From NCBI RefSeq assembly GCF_001412655.1, contig NZ_CP012996.1, positions 4,216,001-4,280,000 of the forward strand: a DNA stretch of 64,000 nucleotides, read 5' to 3'. This document shows positions 27,911 through 55,322 of the stretch, piece after piece. The notes beneath the pieces were generated by a model. That model ran no database searches and had not been told where the DNA came from. It saw nothing but the letters and a program-made list of their open reading frames with translations. The translations under genes and the position numbers were made by a program. This DNA is from Pedobacter sp. PACM 27299 (GTDB lineage: Bacteria > Bacteroidota > Bacteroidia > Sphingobacteriales > Sphingobacteriaceae). Each line of letters begins with the position of its first letter. Position 1 is the stretch's first letter.

Positions 27911-28159
27911 ATGAATACAAAATCGAAATTTGAATTGGAAATTGTCCGTAAAGTACGGACGATCAGAAAAGAAAGAAACAAAGGGCAAACCTATATTGCC
28001 ATGGTTTTGAAAGTTTCCGATGGCTACATAGGACAAATAGAAGGAGAAAGGTGGCCAGCGATGTACACCTATGATCAACTCAACAAAATCGCGATAGATT
28101 TCGGATGTAGTCCCCAGGATTTTATCCCCAATGAAAGTATCATTGAAAACTATAGCTGA
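27911..28159 (+). CDS. XRE-family helix-turn-helix regulator
   Basis: An 82-residue single-domain regulator. The Cro/CI-type helix-turn-helix is seen in GQTYIAMVLKVSDGYIGQIE (about 30-50). The ATG at 27911 is preferred to a frame-extending upstream codon that adds nine hydrophobic residues. The C-terminal part is acidic and helical. It lies tail to tail with the sigma2-FecR fusion, with a terminator between. Confidence 0.85.
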   Translation: MNTKSKFELEIVRKVRTIRKERNKGQTYIAMVLKVSDGYIGQIEGERWPAMYTYDQLNKIAIDFGCSPQDFIPNESIIENYS

Positions 28160-28227: not shown

Positions 28228-29640
28228 CTATTTCAATACCAGAATACGTGTCGCTTCCAGCTTAAAATGAACGGCTCCAGAAAGCTCCAGCAGGCTCAAA
28301 AGTTTAGAGAGTTCGTCAAACCTGGAAGCTTCTAAACTAAGTAATGGCTGATCTGGATTAACCCCTTCATACACTACAGGAACATCATACCAGCGACTTA
28401 TTTTTTCCATGATACTGCTCAATGGCTCCGATTTAAAGATAAACATTCCATTTTTCCAGGAAGTTGCAGCCGCTATGTCTACATTTTTCAGTTGAGCCAT
28501 TGTTTCCGTCAGGATCAGCTGCTCACCAGGTTTCAGGATTGTTTCTTTGTTTCCTATTCCGGGATGGTCAACCAGCACACTACCAGTGACCAAAGTACTG
28601 CTCACAGCGGCATCTTCCGGATAACTGCTGACTTGAAAATGAGTGCCTAAAACTTTCAGTTCCTGTCTGGTCGATTTTACCATAAAAGGAGCAGCTGCAT
28701 TGGTCGCTACCTCAAAATAAGCCTCCCCGCTGAGTTGTACTTTACGTACTTTCTCCGCTGAAAAAACACCAGGAAACTTAAGGGAAGAAGCTGCATTTAA
28801 CCAAACTTTGGTACCATCAGCTAAAGTGAGCATATACTGACCGCCATTTGGAGTTTTGAGCGTTAAATCCATTCCATCTACCGAAACGGGCAATTGGGTT
28901 CCATCATTGTAAGTTATCCCAGATTCGGTAATCCTTAAGCCACTTTTAACCTCGCTTAAACTCAGCTCTTGTCCATCGGGCAATACTAGTGCAGCTTTAT
29001 TACTACCAGGTACAATACCATAAGACGCTGATCCAGTAATCGGATCATCAAACTTAGAAGCCCTGAATTCCCGGTAAAACATAGACATAAAACCCGTTAC
29101 CATTAAAGCCAGGCAAGCAATAGCGAGGTAGGCGAAGGACCTTTGTTTATAAAAAGGGATGAGCTTGATCTTTTGATCAGCAGATTTGATGACTGTACTT
29201 AATAAGGGATATAGTTCAGCGATATGTTTTTTTAAGCGTACATCTATGAATTTCGGAGGTAGCTCATCAACTAGTGCTTTGCGGATCAGCAAACGTAATT
29301 CCTTTTCAGAAAGCGTCCCGAAATGCGCGATCAAAAGTTCTGTTTCCTCCTCGGCGACAAACTTTCTAAAATAATCAAACACCAGGTTTTCAGCCATGGT
29401 ATTCAGCTGAATTACAAAAGCAATTTTTAAAGACAGTTTTCCCCTACTGTCCCAAACGGTAAGGAATAAGTCCTGAATCAATTTATCTACCAGATTCTGA
29501 TCCTTTAGGAGATGCAGCAGCTGCCCGTATATTTTTTCACTGAAATGTGCATAGAGTTTTCCGAAAGCAGTTTCTTCTCCTGCTTTCAGTTTGATCAGTT
29601 CTTCTTTTTCATTCCAGTGCTCTGGTGCTTTAATCCCCAT
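28228..29640 (-). CDS. ECF sigma region 2 fused to a FecR anti-sigma protein
   Basis: A single 470-residue frame that joins two normally separate proteins. Residues about 11-93 look like sigma region 2 (LKAGEETAFGKLYAHFSEKI, then LIQDLFLTVWDSRGKL and LNTMAENLVFDYFRK). Residues about 97-165 resemble the FecR N-terminal cytosolic domain (FGTLSEKELRLLIRKALVDE). A transmembrane segment is at about 168-187, the periplasmic FecR domain at about 265-360 (LADGTKVWLNAASSLKFPG) and a DUF4974 end. There is no sigma region 4. No SusC or TonB receptor is adjacent. The start ATG is the only good one. Confidence 0.85.
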   Translation of the reverse strand: MGIKAPEHWNEKEELIKLKAGEETAFGKLYAHFSEKIYGQLLHLLKDQNLVDKLIQDLFLTVWDSRGKLSLKIAFVIQLNTMAENLVFDYFRKFVAEEETELLIAHFGTLSEKELRLLIRKALVDELPPKFIDVRLKKHIAELYPLLSTVIKSADQKIKLIPFYKQRSFAYLAIACLALMVTGFMSMFYREFRASKFDDPITGSASYGIVPGSNKAALVLPDGQELSLSEVKSGLRITESGITYNDGTQLPVSVDGMDLTLKTPNGGQYMLTLADGTKVWLNAASSLKFPGVFSAEKVRKVQLSGEAYFEVATNAAAPFMVKSTRQELKVLGTHFQVSSYPEDAAVSSTLVTGSVLVDHPGIGNKETILKPGEQLILTETMAQLKNVDIAAATSWKNGMFIFKSEPLSSIMEKISRWYDVPVVYEGVNPDQPLLSLEASRFDELSKLLSLLELSGAVHFKLEATRILVLK

Positions 29641-29749: not shown

Positions 29750-29775
29750 TTTTAATACAAACGTTTGTATTAAAA
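29750..29775. promoter_or_regulatory. Perfect 26-bp palindrome, LacI-type operator candidate
   Basis: TTTTAATACAAAC followed by its exact reverse complement, with the AAACGTTT core typical of LacI/PurR-family operators. It lies 110 bases upstream of the fusion gene start and 20 bases below the aminopeptidase stop. No LacI-family gene is visible in the window. Confidence 0.5.
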
Positions 29776-48701: not shown

Positions 48702-50225
48702 CTACCAGCCTGGATTCTGAGTAATTACTCCAGCACTATTGTCGATTTCTCTTTGTGGTACTGCCCAGACATCATGAACCTGAGGATTAAATGCTCTGGA
48801 TGGCCAAATCACATTTCCTTCTGAATCGTGCAGAGGCAGTGCATAGGTGGCCTGTGCATCTCCCCACCTCACTAAATCTCTGTGACGATCTGCCCATTCT
48901 CCAGCAAGCTCACTCCGGCGTTCTCTTTTCAAATCGGTCATATTCATACCTGATTTTGCAGTTAAACCGGCACGAAGCCTGATTTTATTTAGTTCCGTAT
49001 CACCAGCTCCGGCTCCGCTTACCATAATGGCCGCTTCCGCTTTGATCAGCAATACTTCTGCATAACGCATCAAAGGAACATTCAGATCTGTGGTTCCATT
49101 GTCTCCATTAGGATTAACATGTGTTGGGATTGGGTTTTCATAAGAGAAAGGTTCCATGTATTTTTTAAACTGATAATCAGAGGTTGCCCCGCCATCTTTC
49201 GTAAAACTGCGTTCCTTACCGAAGTATAAAAACTTATCATCGGTTTTCAAAATAGTAGCTTCTCTGCGCTGGTCATTAGCCTCATAAGCATCATACAATT
49301 CTTTAGTAGGCAGAAAATAACCCCAGCCATTGTAAATGCCCCATCCTTTATTGGTCAGCATTACTCCAGGAAGCTTACTTCCCCAACCCGTACCACCTCC
49401 ATTAGGGGTACACACTACCGACCAGATGTATTCTTTAGACCAGTTATTTACCGCTTTGAAAACATCCGAAAACTTAGTCATGATCAGTTCATGCTGACCA
49501 GAATTGATCACCATATCTGCGTATTTTACGGCATTAGGATAGTCCTTTTTATACAGGTAAACCTTTGACAAATATGCCCAGGCGGCTGTTTTATGGGCTT
49601 TTCCATAATCTGTAGCTTTCATATCCTTGAAGTAAGGCAATTGATCTGCTGCTTTCAAAAACAGCTGAATGATATAGTCATAGTTTTCATTCACGTTTTT
49701 TGCTCTCGGAATCGCTTGTGAAGGATCACTATCCAGACCTACAATTGGCACTCCTGCTTTCTCATTTCCATAATTAGCCGCCAATTGAAAATATACCAAT
49801 GCCGAATTAAAATAAGCATCACCAATCACCTGTTTCTTCAGGTTTTCATCCATTGGAATAGCTGGTACTTTGTTAATGATATCGTTGGCACGTTTAATCA
49901 CTGCATAACGCATTGACCATTGCGTTTCTGTATATCCACCACCAACATAAGTTTTATTGAAGTTTTTAATGTTATCACCTTCCGGCTTATTCCTGCCAGT
50001 CACCATATCATCACTGGCATTGATAAACCAGAACATCCCTCTTCCATAAAAATTCTCATCATTGTATTTTTCATACAAGCCACTTTCTGCTTTTAAGGCA
50101 TCTTCAGGTGTTTTCCAGAAATTCTGGGCAGAGGGTGCACCTTCTGGACTAAGGTTCAGTTGTTGTTTACAGGAACTTAAAATTGCCAGTGCTGCAATGG
50201 CTACATACGTTATATTTCGTTTCAT
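48702..50225 (-). CDS. SusD/RagB-family nutrient-binding lipoprotein
   Basis: A 507-residue surface lipoprotein with lipobox LSSC near residue 19. It has a SusD N-terminal motif (SPEGAPSAQNFWKTPEDALKA) and TPR-like helices, including AWAYLSKVYLYKKDYPNAVK, and the C-terminal RAGL and RRSELAGEWADRHRDLVRWG segments. It caps the SusC channel and binds the substrate. It begins 18 bases after the susC-type gene. Confidence 0.95.
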   Translation of the reverse strand: MKRNITYVAIAALAILSSCKQQLNLSPEGAPSAQNFWKTPEDALKAESGLYEKYNDENFYGRGMFWFINASDDMVTGRNKPEGDNIKNFNKTYVGGGYTETQWSMRYAVIKRANDIINKVPAIPMDENLKKQVIGDAYFNSALVYFQLAANYGNEKAGVPIVGLDSDPSQAIPRAKNVNENYDYIIQLFLKAADQLPYFKDMKATDYGKAHKTAAWAYLSKVYLYKKDYPNAVKYADMVINSGQHELIMTKFSDVFKAVNNWSKEYIWSVVCTPNGGGTGWGSKLPGVMLTNKGWGIYNGWGYFLPTKELYDAYEANDQRREATILKTDDKFLYFGKERSFTKDGGATSDYQFKKYMEPFSYENPIPTHVNPNGDNGTTDLNVPLMRYAEVLLIKAEAAIMVSGAGAGDTELNKIRLRAGLTAKSGMNMTDLKRERRSELAGEWADRHRDLVRWGDAQATYALPLHDSEGNVIWPSRAFNPQVHDVWAVPQREIDNSAGVITQNPGW

Positions 50226-50243
50226 CTTTCTTTCTTTTAAAAA

Positions 50244-53200
50244 TTACAAATTCACACTTAGACCCAATAGGAAACTTCTCGCCTGAGGATATCTACCTAC
50301 ATCCAGACCATAGTTGTCCATACCGATTTCCGGATCAAAACCTGAATACTTAGTGATGGTAAATAAGTTATTTGCGGTGCCATAAACACGGATTGCACCT
50401 GTTTTTAGCTTATTGGTCAGGAATTTAGGAAGGGTATAACCCAGCGTCACATTGCGAATACGCAGGTAAGAACCGTCTTCAATATAGAAGTCGGAAGCAT
50501 TGAAGTTTCCATTGTCATCTGAAGTAGAAATGATTGGAACTTTTCCACCTGGATTTTCCGGCGACCAGGCATCCAGAATACCTGTCAACTTATTATAGGA
50601 AGGTCCGCTGGCACTGTAAGTAGTCCTTTTCACCGCATTAAACAACTTATTACCATACACCCCTTGTGCAAAGATATTCAGGTCAAAATTCTTGTAAGCT
50701 GCATTAAAACTAAAGCCATAAGAAAAATCAGGATAAGCGCTGCCTGCAAAATAACGGTCGCCACCATCAATAGAGCCACTATTGTCTAGGTCTGCAAACT
50801 TAAAATCTCCAGGTTTTGCTTTTGGCTGGATCTTTTCCCCTTTTGCATTGGTATAGCTATCTACTTCTGCCTGAGTCTGGAAAATCCCTTGTGTTTTCAA
50901 AACATAATAACTGTATAATGGCTGTCCTACCTTTATGAACAAAGGAGCCAACTCATTTCTAAAGTTCTTATCCACTGGAAAACTTTCTGAACCCGGAGCC
51001 AGTTTGATCACTTTATTGTTCACTTTTGTCAGTGTTGCACCGATAGAATAGCTGAAATCTTTGTTTTTATCACTGTTGTAATTGATGCCCAGTTCTATCC
51101 CGTTATCCCTGATCAATCCAGCATTGATGGTTTGCTTTTCTAATCCAGCAGTTCCAGGAAGCTGTTTTGTAAAGATCATTTTATCGGTATTTTTGATAAA
51201 ATAATCAGCAGTTAAAGTGAAGGTATTGAGTAGAATACCCAGATCTAAACCAAAGTTGGTCTGTTTAGATTCCGCCCATGTCAGATTTGGATTTTCCAGT
51301 ACGGTAGATACATAACCATTACTGCTTGCCGGCGTCTGCCCAAAATACGACAAAACACTGGTCAGCAGTGGGTTCACATCCTGAGTCTGTAAACTCCCCA
51401 GGTTACCTAATACCCCATAACTACCACGAAGTTTCAATTCATTTAACCAGGTACTTTCTACAAGGAAATTCTCTTTTGATAATACCCATCCTGCTGAAGC
51501 AGAATAATAGTCGCCATATTTATTTTCAACTTTTGGAACCATAGAAGTTCCATCACGACGTCCAATTAAAGACAACAGGTACTTTTCCTGATAATTGTAA
51601 TTCGCTCTCAGGAACAAGGACGATAGTGCTGTTCTATCCATTTTACTGACAGCCGGCTCGAACACCGAAGCATTCACCAGGTATCTTTTTGATGGTGCTT
51701 CATCGTCAAAACCTTTACCAACTACATAAAACTCATCAAATCTTGTTTTCTGGAAAGAAAATCCTCCTGTAAAATCTAACTGATGGCTTCCAAAGGCTGT
51801 TTTATAATTAAGAACCTGTTCTGCAAGAAAGTCGTTTTTCCTGGAATTACCTTCTTCCAATGAATTGATCAGCACAGGCTTTCCAACTTCAGGGCGCTTT
51901 GGTGTAAATATTTTTCTATTGTTAAATTCTTTAGTTAAGCTAAAATTAGATTTAAAAGTCAGGCCTTTAGCAAGGTCTAAGATGATATAAGGATTGATCA
52001 AGAGCACATTTTTTGGCTTTTTAATGTCTATCCTTTTCAATTCTGCTACCGGATTCACGATATCACCATAATCGCCCGCATAAGCACCACCTGGTAAACC
52101 TGCGAAACTGCCATCTGGATTGTATGGCGTACCATTAGCAGGATAATAAATCGCCGACAATAAAGCACCAGTGTAATCACTGCTGGTATTTGCGCCCCGA
52201 CCATTCGTGCTGCTAAAAGAAAGGTTTTCACCGATTTTCAACCAGGAATTCAATTTATGTTCAGAATTGATCCTGAAGTTATAGCGTTCCACCTCGGTAT
52301 TCAAGACAATACCTTCCGCTTTACGGTAATTAAAACTCAAATACATAGCAGATTTTTCAGAACCACCGGAAGCAGCCAGGTTATAATCCTGAGTCTTTCC
52401 AGTTCTGAACACCTCATCCATCCAGTTGCTGCGGGTAATTCTGCCCTCCGGATATTTTGTAACATCAAAAGCAGGGAGCAAGTTCGTTTTACCATTCTTC
52501 GCAGCAGTTTCTGCTACTGTCGCCCTTTGTTCTGCATTTAGCGGCGTTAGCTTTTTCCAGGCACTCTGCGCACCGGCTTTTGCATCAAAGCTGATTTCCA
52601 TCTTACCTGTCTTTCCTTTTTTCGTAGTGATCAATACCACCCCTCCGGATGCCCTTGCTCCATAAATAGCGGCAGCACCATCTTTCAGCACAGAAATTGA
52701 TTCAATATCATTTGGATTGAGTACCGGTGTTCCAGGAAAAATTGAACCGTCCACTACATAAAGTACATTTTCTCCATTGATTCCACCAGAACCGCGAATG
52801 TTGACGCGCGGAGCAGAAGTAGGGTCACCACCTTCATTAGTGACCATTACACCGGGTGCTTTTCCTGCCAGTACTTCGCCAATACTATTGACTGATCTGG
52901 AAGATACTTTGTCTAAAGCAACTACACTTACTGCACCAGAAAGTGTGGCTTTTTTCTGTGTACCATAACCCACTACCACCACTTCCGACAATAACGAGCG
53001 ATCTTCCATCAACACCACATTCAATTCCTCCTGCTCGGCTGCTTTCAGTGTCTTAGTTTTATAACCCACCATGGAAAAAGATAAGGATGCATTTTCTCCA
53101 ACTGCGATCGTAAACTTTCCGTTTACATCAGTAGTAGTGGTCCTTGGTAATCCAACCACCTTTACTGATACTCCCGGCATGGCCATTCCTAAAGAATCCG

Positions 53201-53603
53201 TCACTTTTCCGGAAACATTAAAATCAGGCTTTGCAGGAGGAACAGGGATTTTTCTCAGGATCACATGACCGCCCTTTTCCTGGAAATCAAAACCCATCAG
53301 GCGAAGTAAAGCGGAAACGCGCTCATTTTTTAAAGCGACATTTTCCTTAATCTGATGTTCGCGGATGCCATCTGCATTGTATACAAAATGAAGTCCGGTA
53401 CTGGCTTCAATTTCTTTAAGCATAGCGATGGTGGCACGTTTTGGACCTACATTAATCGTGACCCTACTTTTTTCCAATACCTGAGCCATTGTAGGCGAGG
53501 CTGACAATCCCGCACAAAAGGTGCAGAGTATAGAAAAAGTTAACAATGAATATTTCATGGCTTTCAAAAGAGCTGGTGACCTCTTTACTGAGGATTTTTT
53601 CAT
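50244..53603 (-). CDS. SusC/RagA TonB-dependent receptor with STN domain
   Basis: A 1119-residue outer-membrane receptor. After a signal peptide it has an STN domain (about 45-115), which can signal to FecR, a carboxypeptidase-D-like domain (about 130-195, NVSGKVTDSLGMAMPGVSV), the TonB box region SEVVVVGYGTQKKATLSG, a plug and a barrel, ending in LLGLSVNL. It transports the substrate captured by SusD. The STN domain together with the upstream FecR and sigma genes shows a transenvelope signalling loop. Confidence 0.95.
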   Translation of the reverse strand: MKKSSVKRSPALLKAMKYSLLTFSILCTFCAGLSASPTMAQVLEKSRVTINVGPKRATIAMLKEIEASTGLHFVYNADGIREHQIKENVALKNERVSALLRLMGFDFQEKGGHVILRKIPVPPAKPDFNVSGKVTDSLGMAMPGVSVKVVGLPRTTTTDVNGKFTIAVGENASLSFSMVGYKTKTLKAAEQEELNVVLMEDRSLLSEVVVVGYGTQKKATLSGAVSVVALDKVSSRSVNSIGEVLAGKAPGVMVTNEGGDPTSAPRVNIRGSGGINGENVLYVVDGSIFPGTPVLNPNDIESISVLKDGAAAIYGARASGGVVLITTKKGKTGKMEISFDAKAGAQSAWKKLTPLNAEQRATVAETAAKNGKTNLLPAFDVTKYPEGRITRSNWMDEVFRTGKTQDYNLAASGGSEKSAMYLSFNYRKAEGIVLNTEVERYNFRINSEHKLNSWLKIGENLSFSSTNGRGANTSSDYTGALLSAIYYPANGTPYNPDGSFAGLPGGAYAGDYGDIVNPVAELKRIDIKKPKNVLLINPYIILDLAKGLTFKSNFSLTKEFNNRKIFTPKRPEVGKPVLINSLEEGNSRKNDFLAEQVLNYKTAFGSHQLDFTGGFSFQKTRFDEFYVVGKGFDDEAPSKRYLVNASVFEPAVSKMDRTALSSLFLRANYNYQEKYLLSLIGRRDGTSMVPKVENKYGDYYSASAGWVLSKENFLVESTWLNELKLRGSYGVLGNLGSLQTQDVNPLLTSVLSYFGQTPASSNGYVSTVLENPNLTWAESKQTNFGLDLGILLNTFTLTADYFIKNTDKMIFTKQLPGTAGLEKQTINAGLIRDNGIELGINYNSDKNKDFSYSIGATLTKVNNKVIKLAPGSESFPVDKNFRNELAPLFIKVGQPLYSYYVLKTQGIFQTQAEVDSYTNAKGEKIQPKAKPGDFKFADLDNSGSIDGGDRYFAGSAYPDFSYGFSFNAAYKNFDLNIFAQGVYGNKLFNAVKRTTYSASGPSYNKLTGILDAWSPENPGGKVPIISTSDDNGNFNASDFYIEDGSYLRIRNVTLGYTLPKFLTNKLKTGAIRVYGTANNLFTITKYSGFDPEIGMDNYGLDVGRYPQARSFLLGLSVNL

Positions 53604-53735
53604 ATTTTTATCTGTTTTATAACTTGAATTGGTTTTAAAATATTCCGGCTTTATAATTTCGACGTTAGCAGGCCGGTTTTAACACTTGCCGGTACTGATC
53701 TGATCAGTACCGGTTTATTGATCCCCTTTATATTC

Positions 53736-54689
53736 TCATTTTCTATACACATTAAAAGTTTTATGATTTTCTGATGCACTGAATTTCAATTGATGGAGTG
53801 CACAAATGATCTCCAAAATCTCTTCAGGGCTTTGTCTGGTGTTAAATATTCCCGTACATTTTAATTTCCCCAGCGCAGGACTGCCAAGGGAGATGCGGAT
53901 ATTATAGGCGTATTCCAGTTTAGGAATTAAATCTGCTATTGCAATATTTTCAAACTTAAGATCAACCAGCAGTTTAACCGGCGTATCCTTGATTTCAACA
54001 CGCTGCTGTACCTTATCATAAGAAAGTTCCTGGCCTTTCACTAAGGTTCCAAATACCTGGTGTGTATTGCCCACAGCAACCTTACCGGTGGCGACTTGTA
54101 TAGAGATCTTAGATTGATTTTTATATGATTTTATCCGAAAAGAAGTACCCAGTACTTTTGTATACAGGTCATTGCTGGTTTTCACAAGGAAAGGTCTGTT
54201 TTCCTCATGCGCCACCTCAAAAAAGGCCTCTCCTTCAGTCAGTGAGATCGTCCTATCCTTAGTATTAAATTTCAAGGGATAGACCAATTGCGCGAGGGGT
54301 GCCATGATCACCTTTGAACCGTCACTAAAAACAATGATTTTTTTCTCGCTGGCACTGGTATGCAGGGTAGCAAACCTTTCTTTAACCAGCTCGTTTTTTT
54401 GAACTGACCAATAGCCAATACCGATAGACAGTACAAAAAATACAGCTGCAGCAATTTTAGCCGCAGGATAAGTTCCAAAAAAACGGTGGCTTTTAGCGCT
54501 CTTCCGCGCCATTTCCTCCTGAAGATTTAAAAGTACCGCCGCAGCGATTTCTGATTTCTTCCCTTTTGCCAGAGGAGTTTGAAATTCATAAGACTGGTAC
54601 CATTGTTCTACCTGTTCCAGTTCCTGCGGACTGGCTTCTCCATTTAAATATTTACTGAGCAGCAATTGTGCCTGTTCTTCCTTTGTCAT
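53736..54689 (-). CDS. FecR-family anti-sigma factor
   Basis: A 317-residue inner-membrane protein. The cytosolic FecR N-terminus (LLLSKYLNGEASPQELEQVE) is followed by a transmembrane segment near 85-105, the periplasmic FecR domain (IVFSDGSKVIMAPLAQLVYP) and DUF4974 C-terminal domain. The ATG at 54689 is preferred to a TTG two codons earlier. It lies between the sigma gene and susC and probably holds the sigma factor until the receptor signals. Confidence 0.93.
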   Translation of the reverse strand: MTKEEQAQLLLSKYLNGEASPQELEQVEQWYQSYEFQTPLAKGKKSEIAAAVLLNLQEEMARKSAKSHRFFGTYPAAKIAAAVFFVLSIGIGYWSVQKNELVKERFATLHTSASEKKIIVFSDGSKVIMAPLAQLVYPLKFNTKDRTISLTEGEAFFEVAHEENRPFLVKTSNDLYTKVLGTSFRIKSYKNQSKISIQVATGKVAVGNTHQVFGTLVKGQELSYDKVQQRVEIKDTPVKLLVDLKFENIAIADLIPKLEYAYNIRISLGSPALGKLKCTGIFNTRQSPEEILEIICALHQLKFSASENHKTFNVYRK

Positions 54690-54752
54690 CTGCAACTATG
54701 TCAAATGAAAAGAAGAATGGTACTAACCAAAGTTGTTACGCTTAGGTTAAGT

Positions 54753-55322
54753 TTAGATGAACAGTATACAAATCGTCATTAATAACAAGTACGACAGCCT
54801 TTTCTTCATTACTTTTAATGCTGAGGATATTTGATTTTTTACCGTTTGCGCAGAAAGATCCAGTTCTTCTGAAATTTCCCTAATGGTTTTTTCTTCCCTT
54901 CTGCTCATAGAAAAAATCAGCCTCATTCTTTCCGGAAGTTCCTGAATCGCCTCTTCCACTTCCAGGTGGAGTTCTTTGAGTATTAACCCCTGAGCGGCTG
55001 AAAGCCCGGTATTTTCTCTCATCAAAAGACGCAGATCTTCCTGATGCTTTTCTTTAACCTGGGAAGAACGGAAATAATTGATCACTCGGTATTTTACGGC
55101 CCCCATAAAATAAGCAGAAAGACTGCCCTTCAGTTCAATGGTTTCCCGGTTTTCCCAAAGGGAGATAAAGATCTCCTGACAGATGTCCTGAGCAATTTCC
55201 TCTTCACGTACGCGTTTATAGGCGGCATCCAAAACCTCCTCCCAATAGTAACGGTAAATGTCCTCCATTGCCTTATGTTCCCCCCGCTGTAGCAGCGAAA
55301 GCAATTCAGTCTCTGCTATCAT
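54753..55322 (-). CDS. ECF sigma factor of the SusCD locus
   Basis: A 189-residue ECF sigma. Region 2 is seen in EEIAQDICQEIFISLWENRE and YFMGAVKYRVINYFR; region 4 in KTIREISEELDLSAQTVKNQ. A hydrophobic C-terminal tail (LSYLLLMTICILFI) is unusual-looking but common in Bacteroidota sigma factors of this class. It is the first gene of the sigma-FecR-SusC-SusD order. Confidence 0.93.
   Translation of the reverse strand: MIAETELLSLLQRGEHKAMEDIYRYYWEEVLDAAYKRVREEEIAQDICQEIFISLWENRETIELKGSLSAYFMGAVKYRVINYFRSSQVKEKHQEDLRLLMRENTGLSAAQGLILKELHLEVEEAIQELPERMRLIFSMSRREEKTIREISEELDLSAQTVKNQISSALKVMKKRLSYLLLMTICILFI

Follow-up and report, generated by a model that had tools for sequence, protein, structure and literature searches.

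The window analyzed here, a stretch of 64,000 nucleotides from Pedobacter sp. PACM 27299, contains a gene that encodes in a single frame a sigma factor region 2 joined to FecR, without a region 4. This fusion is a genuine, conserved gene and not an artefact, since the same fusion occurs beside the same gene, unbroken and under purifying selection, in five genomes. A first-pass annotation of the window had called such a fusion; the identical unbroken frame in the five genomes bears it out and rules out an artefact or a frameshift as its source. There is good support for its architecture and for the loss of canonical sigma residues, and the sigma half, kept but altered, suggests a regulatory decoy instead of a switch. 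The features are listed below by window coordinates.

28228..29640, minus strand: sigma region 2-FecR fusion gene, 470 amino acids, single frame
29362..29610, minus strand: sigma region 2-like domain, residues 11-93 (AF2 model, Foldseek/VIA)
29482..29493, minus strand: DAED-motif position of region 2.2, residues 50-53 (own alignment; motif as described in PMC8999054)
29401..29421, minus strand: region 2.3 segment, residues 74-80 (Gln at 78 and Asn at 80 in five of five fusions)
29347..29391, minus strand: joint between the region 2.4 helix and FecR, residues 84-98 (gap-free alignment with 74 separate FecR frames)
29167..29349, minus strand: remainder of the FecR anti-sigma domain, helices 2-4, residues 98-158 (FecR alignment, low-confidence model)
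29056..29145, minus strand: predicted transmembrane helix, residues 166-195 in the model (pLDDT about 44-54)
28576..28863, minus strand: periplasmic FecR domain, residues 260-355
28240..28443, minus strand: FecR_C/DUF4974 domain, residues 400-467 (Pfam PF16344)
29757..29768, strand not assigned: palindrome ACAAACGTTTGT upstream of the fusion, present in the five fusion loci

Structure prediction, which the first-pass annotation had suggested as a check, placed a sigma region 2 fold at residues ~11-98 (AF2 model), with support from Foldseek/VIA. The HMM comparison with Sigma70_r2 that it had also suggested gave a divided outcome: the match exists, at 14.4-18.6 bits in the five fusions compared with 57.2 bits in the nearest unfused sigma, but it is below the Pfam cut-off. 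There are 67 region 2 (PF04542) matches in the same genome, 64 of them above the cut-off and not all from FecR pairs, and the fusion is absent from these. No Sigma70_r4 match was listed for the fusion at E ≤ 10, in agreement with the earlier claim that region 4 is lacking, and FecR sequence comes directly after region 2. The FecR and FecR_C periplasmic domains are both present (Pfam, fold search). A single transmembrane helix is predicted from the model, where its pLDDT is low, and from a conserved hydrophobic segment, PFYK..F.YL..AC.AL. The N-terminal anti-sigma domain is incomplete, with region 2.4 residues occupying the position of FecR helix 1. It was modelled at low confidence (blocks of 38-70 in the AF2 model), and a second model, of residues 1-165, had a pLDDT of 56 and still lower confidence for this domain. 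The joint helix spans residues 75-98 in the AF2 model and, at low confidence, 75-107 in the second one. Fold searches with the anti-sigma remnant, about residues 100-165, gave no match that stands out, a result that excludes nothing. Separate translation of FecR from an internal ATG was rejected: there is no conserved Met ahead of the membrane helix, and Met82 is Thr in G142.

When the genus was searched with residues 1-179, the full fusion was found, among the matches listed, in at least five of 145 genomes, up to 23 places being scored in each, so that a very divergent fusion could have escaped. Identity to the window fusion was 97% in G101, 93% in G128, 84% in G142 and 83% in G081. In the 301 genomes of the family (E ≤ 1e-18), the fusion was found in four, including this genome (G101 was unlisted), and a separate sigma in one more. 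One region 2.2 pattern recovered 419 relatives from a collection of species genomes. The best 80 of the 419 include four fusions, while the other 76 have a sigma frame (99-284 amino acids) without a FecR match; at seven of these 76 loci FecR is absent from the whole stretch. The search for relatives that the first-pass annotation had called for thus yielded four other Pedobacter genomes, all with pepP as the neighbour of the fusion. The pepP copies of these four genomes are 90-98% identical to that of the window, compared with at most 81% elsewhere, which points to one origin of the fusion. That the fusion arose locally, out of an operon beside pepP, was considered and rejected: the 13-kb stretches around pepP in the five nearest genomes outside the clade (78.5-80.9% pepP identity) show no FecR. 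Large frames of about 1900-2150 amino acids, some perhaps cut by the stretch, adjoin pepP in these five sister genomes (L099-L103). Domains of lectin-like, Ig-like and type IX secretion signal type were matched in L099, the frame that was scanned.

Besides pepP, the neighbours of the fusion are genes for an HTH protein, a PAS kinase, an AraC protein and efflux functions; no sigma gene and no TonB/SusC transducer gene adjoins it. The nearest SusC is about 20 kb away, as expected from the earlier claim that the fusion has no receptor gene beside it. The genome has at least 27 FecR-like matches (27 of 109 candidates were scored). The HTH protein (27911-28159, plus strand, 82 amino acids) is encoded convergently with the fusion, its HTH_19 match is just below the cut-off, and its listed counterparts (L063, L064 and L065) look almost identical. 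The window also contains, about 19 kb away, a sigma/FecR/SusC/SusD operon (48702-55322, minus strand; Pfam). This operon, whose SusC has no STN match in Pfam, is a possible partner of the fusion.

The five fusion proteins align with no gaps in residues 1-196. Nei-Gojobori dN/dS was 0.05-0.10 for the whole gene and 0.08-0.17 over 10 pairs for the sigma part (residues 1-96). The three pairs with dS under 0.5, in which omega for the sigma part was 0.08, 0.11 and 0.12, are the safest because several of the distant pairs have dS above 1 or are saturated in some regions. Anti-sigma helices 2-4 gave an omega of 0.05-0.13 in the nine of 10 pairs where it was computable. Since it is constrained, the cytoplasmic part does more than anchor the protein, a point that weighs against the reading favored below. 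Upstream of all five fusions, the palindrome ACAAACGTTTGT and much of the next ~30 bases are held in common. The genome has two ACAAACGTTTGT sites (control, 0): the one upstream of the fusion and another inside what we take to be a ribosomal protein gene. The palindrome, which is presumably LacI-like, is a possible candidate operator.

The fusions depart from canonical sigma factors at residues of the core-binding motif and of region 2.3. The DAED motif of region 2.2 is described as serving core binding (PMC8999054). Residues 50-53, which occupy its place, are LVDK in the window fusion and LADK in G142, position 53 being the last DAED residue in our alignment. An acidic DAED residue and a region 2.3 aromatic are both missing, with Lys53 and Gln78 in five of five fusions. 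Among 115 distinct canonical sigmas, position 53 is Glu in 76, Asp in 37 and Ser in two, and position 78 is Tyr in 77, Phe in 33 and Trp in four, with one gap. At position 80, Phe or Tyr occurs in 92 of the 115; all five fusions have Asn there, as does one canonical sigma. These counts left out seven duplicates (six of the fusion, one of the G109 sigma), two divergent 179-amino-acid sigma frames, sigma frames elsewhere in the same loci and sequences identical over the first 150 residues; two cut or split sigma frames (L143, L174) were retained. Because the pattern used to choose the 76 loci constrains positions 56-64, those positions prove nothing there; positions 53, 78 and 80 are outside the pattern. 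The two sigmas with Ser at position 53 (L110, 622-1221, and L111, 5947-6540, both plus strand) are otherwise canonical Bacteroidota sigmas that recall EcfP. With the acidic residue and the region 2.3 aromatics lost, the sigma-2 domain should neither bind core well nor melt DNA, and the sigma half looks dead as a sigma factor. Core binding may nonetheless be weakened and not lost, because the net acid count of residues 47-53, +1 in the fusion, is also +1 in five of the 115 canonical sigmas, and Gln56, Asp57, Phe59 and Trp63 of region 2.2 are retained.

The closest separate genes were found in an operon of G109 (L066) that encodes a sigma of 201 amino acids with regions 2 and 4, a FecR of 411 amino acids, a SusC-like receptor with STN and plug domains and a SusD-like protein. 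In a tree of 138 tips, the fusion's sigma half and the G109 sigma are sisters (support 0.91). By BLAST, the G109 FecR ranks first both for residues 97-165 and for residues 97-470; over the longer stretch it scores 310 bits, ahead of a headless relative (276) and the hit after that (252). It is identical to the fusion at 27 of 61 positions over 97-160. For the periplasmic part alone it is outside the six best hits shown, and in the FecR periplasmic tree the sister group of the fusion has a support of 0.32. The sigma stretch stops near Lys93 and FecR starts near residue 97. The 74 separate FecR frames, aligned from helix 1 onward, have L86 in 70, Tyr or Phe at 90 in 72, E99 in 66 and L103 in 70. 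L86, Y90, E99 and L103 of the fusion fall in register with these positions, even though its residues 86-93 read as sigma, which indicates that the region 2.4 helix replaces anti-sigma helix 1. Compared with the nearest separate genes, the fusion thus consists of region 2 and FecR without region 4 and the first FecR helix, and we infer that it arose by an in-frame deletion in a G109-like sigma/FecR operon.

Relatives of the G109 FecR (E ≤ 1e-95) were found in 13 of 145 genomes. Five of them (G012, G026, G032, G080 and G088) have a headless FecR of 322-344 amino acids, with the membrane segment and the periplasmic module (Pfam) and of the same FecR subfamily. None of these five loci has an anti-sigma domain in its FecR or a sigma gene upstream of it. 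Their coordinates are as follows.

L187, 1498-2532, minus strand: headless FecR gene
L188, 1492-2463, minus strand: headless FecR gene
L189, 1468-2481, plus strand: headless FecR gene
L190, 1486-2454, plus strand: headless FecR gene
L191, 1498-2505, minus strand: headless FecR gene

All five, like the G109 locus, are near and divergent from a gene for a protein of ~160 amino acids that is lipoprotein-like by eye and the G109 copy of which had no Pfam match; in G032 an AraC-like gene lies between the two. The upstream block GAAATTATATATAATATTG is common, with small changes, to the headless FecRs and the G109 sigma. The G012 start matches that of the G109 sigma in 24 of the 36 bases after the ATG, which none of 20,000 shuffles reached, and the G088 start in 18 of 36 (p 0.006); the starts in G026, G032 and G080 resemble it too little to tell. 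Some of the headless FecRs do have receptors close by: another sigma/FecR/SusC set comes immediately downstream in G026, and in G080 about 1.6 kb separates the gene from that of a TonB receptor, which has no STN match. The lipoprotein locus was rejected as a former site of the fusion, there being no FecR at that place in the two fusion genomes examined (G000 and G142). That headless forms exist supports, without proving, that the periplasmic FecR module is the part worth keeping.

Taking these observations together, we tentatively favor, at somewhat below an even chance, a self-capped and transcriptionally inert pseudo-sigma FecR that acts in trans, probably as a decoy on the signal side. In class I anti-sigma domains, among which FecR is placed in a group that aligns poorly with the other groups, helix 1 is reported to bind sigma-4 and helix 4 to bind sigma-2 on its RNAP-binding face (PMC7406223). 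If this rule applies, the fusion has lost both partners of the first interface and kept both partners of the second, which may persist in cis. The sigma-2 domain would then pair with helix 4 of its own anti-sigma domain and cap that domain, an arrangement reached by analogy, and would bind core polymerase poorly without melting DNA. The transmembrane and periplasmic FecR module would stay usable, and the fusion, acting in trans, would compete for one of two targets: SusC/TonB transducers, at their signalling domain, or the FecR-processing proteases. Other sigma/FecR signalling would thereby be damped by a protein with no transcriptional output of its own. Action in trans, which the first-pass annotation had raised, is the most likely mode because no sigma or receptor gene adjoins the fusion. 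The main doubt on capping comes from E. coli, where the N-region of FecR is reported to have been mapped to sigma-4 and not sigma-2 of FecI (PMC9249621), an argument against the family having a strong sigma-2 interface.

A second, unlikely reading is that of a membrane-tethered sigma mimic (an anti-anti-sigma factor), in which the dead sigma-2 would capture the anti-sigma domains of other FecRs on an outside signal and free their sigmas, in the membrane or after RseP-type proteolysis. Core- and DNA-contact residues are lost yet the fold is kept under strong constraint, as this reading would have it. Helix 4 of class I domains binds sigma-2 (PMC7406223), and the sigma-like domain of PhyR (PMC8103513), which acts on NepR, is a precedent. 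The E. coli FecR mapping weighs against a mimic as it does against capping, the fusion's own helix 4 should compete in cis, and the partner of the sigma-2 domain is hypothetical. If the mimic were true, one nutrient signal would be coupled to the sigma factors of other systems.

It is more doubtful that the fusion is, as the first-pass annotation proposed, a competitor at the membrane, its sigma-2 titrating core polymerase or its anti-sigma domain holding other sigmas. The retained Gln56, Asp57, Phe59 and Trp63 and the kept and constrained anti-sigma helices 2-4 are consistent with this. However, the charge is reversed at the core-contact motif, FecR helix 1, the sigma-4 binder of class I domains, is missing, and titration of the abundant core by a membrane-tethered protein seems unlikely. 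A decoy for core polymerase and a latent factor released by proteolysis had been among the roles offered by the first-pass annotation; Lys53 in all five fusions, the lost region 2.3 aromatics and the absence of region 4 disfavor both. A latent sigma, in which a sigma-2/anti-sigma fragment freed by proteolysis would direct polymerase by itself or together with another protein that supplies region 4, has precedents in IutY, activated by Prc and RseP (PMC5411451, PMC9249621), and in SigO-RsoA, where a sigma-2 works with a region 4 in trans (PMC8103513), and Q56, F59 and W63 are retained. We consider it improbable given the same three losses. A split sigma like that of RsoA was rejected, as no clear region 4 partner appeared in the PF08281 and PF04542 lists inspected by eye: the 73 PF08281 matches in the genome include no clear free-standing region 4 protein, and the only short frames are one of 70 amino acids with a stop and one of 148 below the cut-off. 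Equally improbable is a neutral relic of a decaying operon with no role for its product, since the missing receptor gene, the lost sigma residues and the related FecR loci likewise without a sigma are set against a frame unbroken in five genomes, a low overall dN/dS and a conserved upstream block.

Several known proteins share part of this design. The sigma-like domain of PhyR contains both sigma-2 and sigma-4 parts, EcfP has a region 4, and RsoA is soluble and unfused to FecR. PhyR likewise has a sigma-like domain in a non-sigma protein (PMC8103513), though within a response regulator and with NepR as its target, and RsoA of Bacillus subtilis is a sigma-2 without sigma-4 that works with SigO (PMC8103513). 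In EcfP (ECF43) of Vibrio parahaemolyticus, too, region 2.2 is without the DAED motif and the protein is inactive by itself (PMC8999054), but it has STTA in that place and is activated by phosphorylation. Similar in layout is IutY (ECF243) of Pseudomonas putida, described as having a cytoplasmic sigma, one transmembrane helix and a periplasmic FecR-like module in one polypeptide (PMC5411451, PMC9249621). IutY has sigma-2 and sigma-4 joined to its FecR module, drives transcription after cleavage by Prc and RseP, and adjoins the receptor gene iutA. In contrast, the Pedobacter fusion has no region 4 and no adjoining receptor, has lost its sigma-2 contacts and keeps most of a separate anti-sigma domain. 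The G109 operon, whose FecR is the closest homologue located both for the anti-sigma domain and for the FecR part as a whole, differs in encoding two separate proteins, with region 4 present and the anti-sigma domain complete; genes for a SusC that has an STN domain and for SusD come after them. The first-pass annotation correctly states that an ECF sigma and its FecR are as a rule separate proteins, but hybrids of sigma and anti-sigma factors are already known, as the accounts of IutY and of groups ECF48, ECF52, ECF53 and ECF36 indicate; the version of sigma-2 and FecR without region 4 is new. In the literature listings covered, some of them in part, titles and the beginnings of abstracts describe no region 2-FecR fusion lacking region 4 and no fusion from Pedobacter.

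A chimera that apparently keeps one of the two sigma/anti-sigma interfaces in cis, with its sigma half altered, would be a test of which contacts matter. The fusion would also bear on whether orphan FecRs regulate in trans and on how the numerous sigma/FecR systems in one genome stay apart or cross-talk, and the headless FecRs suggest that a periplasmic module can merit keeping without its cytoplasmic part.
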